32,264 nt of DNA from an uncultured Pseudomonadota bacterium (GTDB lineage Bacteria; Desulfobacterota; Binatia; Binatales; Binataceae). Shown piece after piece: positions 13,847-15,626 of this stretch; positions within the stretch are counted from its first letter, which is position 1; each line of letters begins with the position of its first letter. The notes under the pieces are model-generated. The model was not told the DNA's origin. It did not search any database and was given only the letters and a program-made list of their open reading frames with translations. Both the position numbers and the translations under genes were made by a program. Location of the stretch: the NCBI GenBank assembly GCA_937889395.1, contig CALAOW010000086.1, forward strand, positions 1 to 32,264. Direction: 5' to 3'.

Positions 13847-13856
13847 GAATAAATTA

Positions 13857-13885
13857 ATTGTAGTGAAACCCACCGTGGGTTTCAG
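13857..13885 (-). promoter_or_regulatory. putative sigma-70 promoter of the C69 peptidase gene
   Basis: Minus strand: CTGAAA - 17 nt - TACAAT, 10 nt upstream of the ATG at 13846; the spacer contains most of a palindrome. Confidence 0.4.
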
Positions 13886-13935
13886 CAGGGGTGACCCCTG
13901 CACCCAGTGTTAAAACAAAGATGCGGGCCCCGCAT
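13865..13935. repeat. three tandem short palindromes
   Basis: gaaaccca-ccg-tgggtttc (13865-13883); gcaggggt-g-acccctgc (13885-13901); atgcggg-c-cccgcat (13921-13935). Confidence 0.85.
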
Positions 13936-14189
13936 ATTACAAAGCGCTCGACAGCCACAGCGAGGACGGCAACGGCAGCGTGACCTTCAACTGGTCGCTG
14001 ACAACGGCGGACACCGGCGCGGACGGAATAACCATTCAGGAGCTGGCGATATTCGCCAATCATGCCAGCGCGGGACTCCCCGGAACGACCGCGCCGACTC
14101 CGATGCTCGCGCGCAAGACGATAGCACCAATAGTCTTCAGCGCGGGAATGAGATTCGGCGCTTACATAGACGCTTACCTACTGAAGTAG
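13914..14189 (+). pseudogene. phage tail/tail-fibre-like C-terminal gene fragment
   Basis: Open frame without an N-terminal start after TAA 13911-13913: 'AGPAYYKALDSHSEDGNGSVTFNWSLTTADTGADGITIQELAIFANHASAGLPGTTAPTPMLARKTIAPIVFSAGM...'; resembles phage tail-associated proteins ('TPMLARKTIAPI'). Confidence 0.4.
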
Positions 14190-14191
14190 CA

Positions 14192-14293
14192 ATGCCTACA
14201 CTAGTCGAAGCAGCCGAGTTCACCTCCAATGAGGTGTATCAAATTCAGCAAGTAACGTATTGGGTCCGAGGTCTGCGCGATGAGAAAGCTTAG
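14192..14293 (+). pseudogene. short ORF whose N-terminus resembles a phage structural protein; apparently truncated
   Basis: 'MPTLVEAAEFTSNEVYQIQQVTYWVRGLRDEKA'; overlaps the downstream hicA-like ORF by 14 nt. Confidence 0.35.
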
Positions 14294-14510
14294 CCCTGTC
14301 CACTGGAAGAGGCTCAGATGCGTGTTCGAGCACGACGGTTTCGTCTTCAAACCTGGCAAAGGTGACCATTGGAAGGGTGAAAAAGCGGGCGTCGCCAGAC
14401 CGATCATCATTCCGGCTTACGATGAGGTAGGTCTCGACATAATTCGATCATGCATGCGGACGTCAAGAATGACGCGCGAACGTTACCTGCAATTGCTGAA
14501 AAAGTGTTGA
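14280..14510 (+). CDS. hicA: HicA-family (YcfA-type) mRNA interferase toxin
   Basis: 76 aa; 'HDGFVFKPGKGDHW' (catalytic-His-like G-x-H) and 'RPIIIPAYDEVGLDIIRSCMRTSRMTRERYLQLL' typical of the HicA C-terminus. Confidence 0.65.
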   Translation: MRKLSPVHWKRLRCVFEHDGFVFKPGKGDHWKGEKAGVARPIIIPAYDEVGLDIIRSCMRTSRMTRERYLQLLKKC

Positions 14511-14516
14511 ACGCGA

Positions 14517-14828
14517 TCACGCGGAAGCTGCGCGGGAATGCGCGCGCTCGATCGAAAATGGCAGCGGCACAGTCACTTCCTTCCGGCCGCGCGCAGCGGG
14601 TTTCAATTTCTGATGGCGCCCGACAGCGGGCACAAACCCCGCTTCGCGCAACACGACTTCCAGCGTGCCACGCTCGTAACAACTGAGCAGAAAAGTCGCG
14701 AGCGCGTCCTTCAAATTGCGCTCGGCGTGTTCGCGCGTGTGACCCTGCGAATGAACATCGAGCAAATTACACGAGGAGATGAACCATTTGCCCTTTTTCC
14801 TAACTTGCGCGGGGAGTTTGAATTCCAT
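14517..14828 (-). CDS. hicB: HicB-family antitoxin-like protein
   Basis: 'MEFKLPAQVRKKGKWFISSCNLLDVHSQGHTREHAERNLKDALATFLLSCYERGTLEVVLREAGF' HicB fold pattern. Confidence 0.75.
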   Translation of the reverse strand: MEFKLPAQVRKKGKWFISSCNLLDVHSQGHTREHAERNLKDALATFLLSCYERGTLEVVLREAGFVPAVGRHQKLKPAARGRKEVTVPLPFSIERAHSRAASA

Positions 14829-14882
14829 TGAGGCTTGCATATCGGCGACCTGCTGATGGTCGTATCATAGCTGCTCACGCCG

Positions 14883-15626
14883 GTGAATCGTAAGAGCCCA
14901 TTTTCGTATGTCTGCAATGCGTGCGGGCGATGCTGCCATGACAAGGTAATCACGCTGTCGCCGTATGACGTGCTGAGGCTCGCGCGCGCCGCGGGTATCA
15001 CGACGCGCGAGGCGATCGCTCGTTACACGATTCGGCGCGGATCGATCCTGAAGTTCACCGACGGCGGCGCGTGCGCGGCGCTCGAAGGCGCGCGCTGCGG
15101 GGTCCATCGCGGACGCTCGCTCGCATGCCGGCTCTATCCGCTCGGTATTGAAAATGGCGAAGACGGAGACGGTGATAAATTTGTGACGCTCGATCCCGCT
15201 GCAGGCTCGCTTGGCGTGTATGGCGACGACGGCGCGGTGAATGACTTCCTCGACGCACAGCGCGTCGGATCGTATCTCGAAGCGAACGCCGGCTGCGCGT
15301 CGTTGATGGCGGTCTTTCGCGAACGAATCGCGGCGACGGCCGATTTCGATCGAGTCGAGCCGCGCGAGTTCTGGCGGCGCGCCGTTCGCGAGGCGCTGGC
15401 CGAGTCGGGCTACGACGCGAATCCGCTCATCGACGCGATATTCGATGTGGGCGGAATCGGATGCGCCGCCAGCGGTGATGCAGAAACGATTGCGGCGCAT
15501 CTGGAACGACTTGCGGAGATGATTCGGGGCGAGTCGAATGCAGAGTTGCTCGCGGCGGCGGCGGTGATGCTCGCGGTGAGCATTGGGCAGGGGCCAGCCG
15601 CTGCACATACTGACGCCGAGATTTAG
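14883..15626 (+). CDS. YkgJ-family Cys-cluster (Zn/Fe-chelating) protein
   Basis: 'YVCNACGRCCHDKVITLSPYDVLRLARAAGITTRE...CAALEGARCGVHRGRSLACRLYPLG'; GTG start. Confidence 0.88.
   Translation: MNRKSPFSYVCNACGRCCHDKVITLSPYDVLRLARAAGITTREAIARYTIRRGSILKFTDGGACAALEGARCGVHRGRSLACRLYPLGIENGEDGDGDKFVTLDPAAGSLGVYGDDGAVNDFLDAQRVGSYLEANAGCASLMAVFRERIAATADFDRVEPREFWRRAVREALAESGYDANPLIDAIFDVGGIGCAASGDAETIAAHLERLAEMIRGESNAELLAAAAVMLAVSIGQGPAAAHTDAEI

Follow-up and report, generated by a model that had tools for sequence, protein, structure and literature searches.

A Tail-to-Tail HicA/HicB-Like Pair as a Probable Old Inversion within a Class 2-Like hicBA Module

The window analysed here, 32,264 bp long and equal to the entire contig C86 of a draft genome (2.75 Mb, 206 contigs), carries a hicA-like toxin gene (14280..14510, plus strand) and a hicB-like antitoxin gene (14517..14840, minus strand) that are adjacent but converge from opposite strands, their stop codons being separated by 6 bp (14511..14516). 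An earlier note on this DNA had described HicA-type and HicB-type reading frames facing each other across such a gap, and both are found where it had placed them. The best explanation, to which we give a probability of roughly 0.7, is that they form a type II HicA/HicB pair whose toxin gene was inverted relative to the antitoxin gene in an ancestor of the family. The layout would most likely go back to an old inversion inside a Class 2-like hicBA module that has since been inherited, because it recurs together with its neighbours in a second genome, called G441, and both genes are under purifying selection.

The hicA-like gene begins with ATG at 14280, ends with TGA at 14508-14510 and encodes 76 amino acids, a predicted mRNA interferase of dsRBD-like fold with His30 in a G-D-H motif. 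The comparison with Pfam models proposed in the earlier note gives a mixed outcome for the single sequences. Against PF07927 (HicA toxin) the window HicA reaches 18.2 bits, under the cut-off of 27 bits, and the window HicB alone has no match in either Pfam or NCBIfam, while the G441 orthologue of HicA scores 27.1 bits, only just above the cut-off. The canonical HicA proteins of G051 and G045, two genomes of the same class, have 48.6 and 35.5 bits, respectively, and it is because these relatives and G441 reach the cut-off that the family identity can be considered secured. The window protein also aligns over its full length with clear HicAs, and all aligned sequences have the histidine of the G-[SD]-H motif. 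Single-sequence searches of PDB sequences gave no meaningful match. The AF2 model has a pLDDT of 93, and its best Foldseek match in the PDB is 1whz (TM 0.78), followed by the HicA structures 5yrz, 6g26, 4p78 and 6hpb; the E-values are weak, 4e-3 at best. Among the matched HicA toxins are those of S. pneumoniae, B. pseudomallei, Y. pestis (4p78, HicA3) and E. coli. The model and the alignment thus give the window protein the dsRBD-like HicA fold with the catalytic histidine, and profile, predicted fold and conserved residue together support its identity. Since HicA cuts RNA in the known HicAB systems, where HicB binds and blocks it (PMC11594946, PMC10865869), the window HicA would be an mRNA-cutting toxin.

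For hicB, whose stop codon is at 14517-14519, two starts were considered, the ATG at 14840, which gives 107 amino acids, and an inner ATG at 14828. The former is more likely, because the hicB genes of G441 and of another family member, G004, start at the matching codon, and an AGGT is visible by eye upstream of it. Of the span 14280-14828 given previously, the hicA coordinates and the hicB stop therefore hold, while the hicB end probably has to be moved outwards. Aligned to a profile of canonical HicBs, the protein obtains an hhalign probability of 96.5 (E 9e-10), and its AF2 model superimposes on the HicB N-domain of 6g1c with an rmsd of 0.9 Å over 54 columns/residues (Foldseek). Both results point to a partial RNase H fold at the N-terminus. 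The C-terminal part of the model consists mostly of strands, with moderate confidence, and neither the profiles nor the model reveal an HTH or RHH, that is, there is no recognisable DNA-binding domain. The profile-profile match and the RNase-H-like N-domain support the assignment as HicB, which by analogy with the known systems would bind HicA as a protein and block it. Taken with the profile scores of the relatives, these folds and alignments bear out the HicA-like and HicB-like identities originally proposed.

We now turn to the counterpart in G441, which belongs to the same family (class Binatia) as the window but to another genus. Here, hicA (C77:607-840, plus strand) and hicB (C77:846-1169, minus strand) also converge, with 5 bp between the stop codons, so that the neighbourhood survey suggested in the earlier note does return the same layout in a second genus. 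As in the window, a divergent CxxCxxCC gene (PF03692; window 14883..15626, plus strand), a conserved neighbour by which the slot can be recognised throughout the family, comes after hicB. The other side of the G441 pair is occupied by the apparent 5' end of an acyl-CoA dehydrogenase gene, and in many family members such a gene directly adjoins the CxxCxxCC gene. The first nine positions of this G441 contig (L151), TTCCGATCT, resemble a leftover sequencing-adapter end.

Between the two genomes the proteins are 62% (HicA) and 65% (HicB) identical. The silent sites are saturated in hicA (pS 0.89) and strongly diverged in hicB (dS 1.28), while the replacement rates are low (pN 0.23 and dN 0.32, respectively), which indicates purifying selection on both genes. 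The identities of hicA at the three codon positions are 0.64/0.79/0.43. When neutral evolution was simulated to the same nucleotide identity, with 500 runs for each gene, the protein identity never exceeded 0.49 for hicA and 0.50 for hicB; the observed HicA value of 0.62 is above every run. Since the layout recurs at the same slot and the protein identities surpass all neutral simulations, the pair of reading frames is not a product of chance. In the trees, the HicAs of the window and G441 form one clade (98/95), as do the HicBs of the window, G441, G004 and G016 (100/100). The trees place the pair no more finely than in one subfamily, and by sequence both proteins are shown to belong to one Class 2-like hicBA subfamily.

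How rare the convergent layout is was assessed by drawing HicA relatives from GTDB contigs, 395 genomes of the phylum, 148 genomes of the class, viral contigs and 40 further places on the phylum list, and scoring the nearest HicB for each locus. hicB followed by hicA on one strand is found at 107 of the 111 loci, which correspond to ca 102 distinct places because G045, G051 and one locus of the window's own genome were collected more than once, and the end of hicB usually overlaps the start of hicA in these canonical relatives. The other four comprise one locus cut by a contig end, one (L004) that has no profile match but is a co-directional hicA-hicB judged by its ORFs, and the two convergent pairs. 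Among the loci surveyed, the convergent layout thus occurs in only two genomes, from two genera of one family. The window's genome has four other hicA/hicB loci (L001-L004), all co-directional, three of them hicBA and one hicAB, and one canonical hicBA was found among the viral contigs. The earlier assertion that canonical hicAB pairs are co-directional is consistent with these counts; the order it named is not, as the nearest co-directional relatives are hicBA, with the antitoxin first. PADLOC, Rfam and phage-record searches returned no match, and a plasmid search returned one weak match, to Thermus. At one surveyed locus (L100, Acidobacteriaceae PLQW01000136.1, ~1990-2232), a hicBA with an intact hicB, the hicA that follows is divided between two reading frames and is apparently a broken toxin.

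Class 2 hicBA modules combine a small HicA with a small HicB of 63-103 codons that has a partial RNase H fold and no recognisable DNA-binding domain (Gerdes 2024, PMC10865869). The window pair has the same HicA/HicB make-up, including the HicB that lacks such a domain, and its nearest sequence relatives are hicBA pairs of this kind, but its HicB of 107 amino acids is just over that size range and its hicA is inverted to face hicB, with no shared operon, overlap or translational coupling. The Class 2 arrangement of hicB upstream of hicA in one operon is found neither in the window nor in G441. The hicAB systems of E. coli, Y. pestis and B. pseudomallei (Classes 3 and 4) share the HicA fold and the HicB N-domain, but there hicA comes first, the genes are co-directional, and a HicB with HTH or RHH represses the operon. 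The survey by Gerdes names 14 HicA contexts, none of them convergent (PMC10865869), and in the titles and abstracts that a literature search listed, there was no report of a hicA/hicB pair in convergent or opposite orientation. TADB 3.0 describes the typical locus of types II to VII as a tandem pair of genes on the same strand, and TAfinder 2.0 keeps the one-strand operon criterion (PMC10767807). The window genes are two adjacent protein genes, but not on one strand, and finders with this requirement would miss convergent toxin-antitoxin pairs. A conserved pair of this kind suggests that similar ones go missed, and also that co-transcription is not required for keeping a HicA toxin safe. How modules with a HicB lacking a DNA-binding domain are regulated is an open question raised by Gerdes (2024, PMC10865869), and the window pair offers a natural test of how such a HicB keeps the antitoxin above the toxin.

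In this explanation, HicA would cut mRNA, and the HicB protein would bind HicA and block it. The tail-to-tail layout means that the genes are transcribed separately, and a transcript coding for the antitoxin cannot serve to make the toxin. hicA would thus be without translational coupling to hicB and each gene would need its own promoter, so that safety would require a higher expression of hicB than of hicA. Scans for promoters and terminators yielded nothing convincing for hicA or hicB. By eye, one can see a TATGAT and the AGGT mentioned above before the hicB start, and a Shine-Dalgarno-like GAGGT region (14267..14272, plus strand) shortly 5' of the hicA start. The TATGAT, which is -10-like on the minus strand, is located in the 42-bp intergenic region (14841..14882), which likewise precedes the CxxCxxCC gene.

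Because the terminator scan detected nothing terminator-like in either gene of the window or in the gap between them, the two transcripts probably overlap at the 3' ends, unless termination occurs inside the facing gene, and this overlap may damp hicA further. Regulation by antisense read-through, as put forward in the earlier note, is thus possible, but any such damping of hicA is a hypothesis only. A stronger version, in which the head-on layout is itself the regulator and the hicB transcript serves both as the message for the protein antitoxin and as an antisense RNA silencing hicA, would make the pair a type I/type II hybrid that replaces the lost translational coupling; we consider this rather unlikely. 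Type I modules in which the antisense RNA overlaps at the 3' end, for example yonT/SR6 (PMC5848175), are similar in having convergent units whose 3' ends would overlap, but their antitoxin is an RNA, whereas the facing gene in the window encodes a conserved HicB protein.

The history of the slot bears on whether the two genes work together. hicB is present there in the window, G441, G016, G004 (C-terminus lost) and G019 (broken), and hicA in the window and G441 only. The slot survey of family genomes thus yields hicB without hicA in G004, G016 and G019, neither gene in most genomes, and hicA without hicB in none. This pattern fits a toxin-antitoxin pair, although the numbers are small. As the solitary hicB is damaged in two of the three cases (G004 and G019), the losses in relatives look as if the toxin went first and the antitoxin later, an order that would be expected if HicB protects against HicA. 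The genomes with an occupied slot are spread over three genera on the CxxCxxCC tree, which suggests an old pair with many losses; a transfer among members of the family is a conceivable alternative. The closest sister species lack the pair. One of them, G005, keeps the hicB upstream region (window 14831-14882 vs L050 1-110) at 94%, although hicB is gone. From the hicB start on, the G005 sequence is unrelated, so that the boundary of a deletion or replacement lies close to window 14831. No co-directional ancestor was seen at the same slot in the survey, and the inversion is for this reason something that we infer.

Another option, which we also consider unlikely, is that the inverted hicA has been tamed, with HicA being an RNA-binding protein that is non-toxic or weak, and HicB retained in a different function, for example together with the divergent CxxCxxCC gene. 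The three genomes with HicB but no HicA have it beside or near the CxxCxxCC gene each time, and the window HicA has a fairly long branch on the tree in addition to its low Pfam score. However, the catalytic His, R40-P41, I44-P45 and R66 are all retained in the alignment, the G-D-H variant also occurs in the canonical relatives L105, L107, L110 and L113, and the broken hicB of G019 and the truncated one of G004 are what one would expect of an orphan antitoxin.

Directly upstream of the window hicA there is a scrap of phage-tail sequence (13928..14251, plus strand), a frameshifted duplicate of the 3' end of a tail gene and the start of the next gene. It is 92% identical to the copy on contig C9 and ~92% identical also to copies in sister species, and the similarity ends just 5' of hicA, at ~14251 or perhaps 14275. 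The intact tail gene (G000:C9:32548-32872), adjoined by a gp53-like tail-fibre gene (PF21882), is matched in 23 of 58 relatives, most of them in the same family, and the tail cluster is therefore likely resident. Bordering the scrap is one copy of a dispersed palindromic repeat (13851..13928), with the parts GAAACCCACCGTGGGTTTC and GCAGGGGTGACCCCTGC, that occurs in ~50 places in the genome and also beside C69 in the sister species. The scrap is a separate insertion, and neither element is part of the pair.

With the scrap so close to hicA, and with hicB solitary at the slot in G004 and G016 and sister species lacking both genes, one could think of unrelated orphan genes, a resident hicB and a hicA that arrived with the scrap, that are chance neighbours and not a functional pair. 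The earlier note had likewise offered orphaned halves joined by a phage-linked rearrangement. This scenario is improbable, as G441, where such a convergent pair occupies the same slot with no scrap upstream, already largely refutes it; moreover, the HicAs of the two genomes are sisters, both genes share a subfamily with co-directional hicBA partners, and both are under purifying selection. Our first idea, based on 58 relatives, had been that hicA was inserted once, with the tail scrap, next to a resident solitary hicB; it was dropped when an order-wide search found the G441 pair. To return to the inherited inversion, the comparison with G441 indicates that the scrap did not bring hicA and hicB together. 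The sequence upstream of hicA was inspected for the 3' end of a former hicB, and no clear remnant was seen. The scrap may have displaced the native hicA promoter, and hicA may be poorly expressed in the window, since the scrap is directly upstream and no promoter-like site was found.

Finally, an assembly artefact, by which pieces that lie apart in the cell were joined, is very improbable: the genome is a draft in many contigs and the ~50-copy repeat is ~350 bp from hicA, but the convergent junction is present in two separately assembled genomes, the flanks C69 - hicB - CxxCxxCC match those in G016, and the tail scrap differs from the intact copy by 8%.
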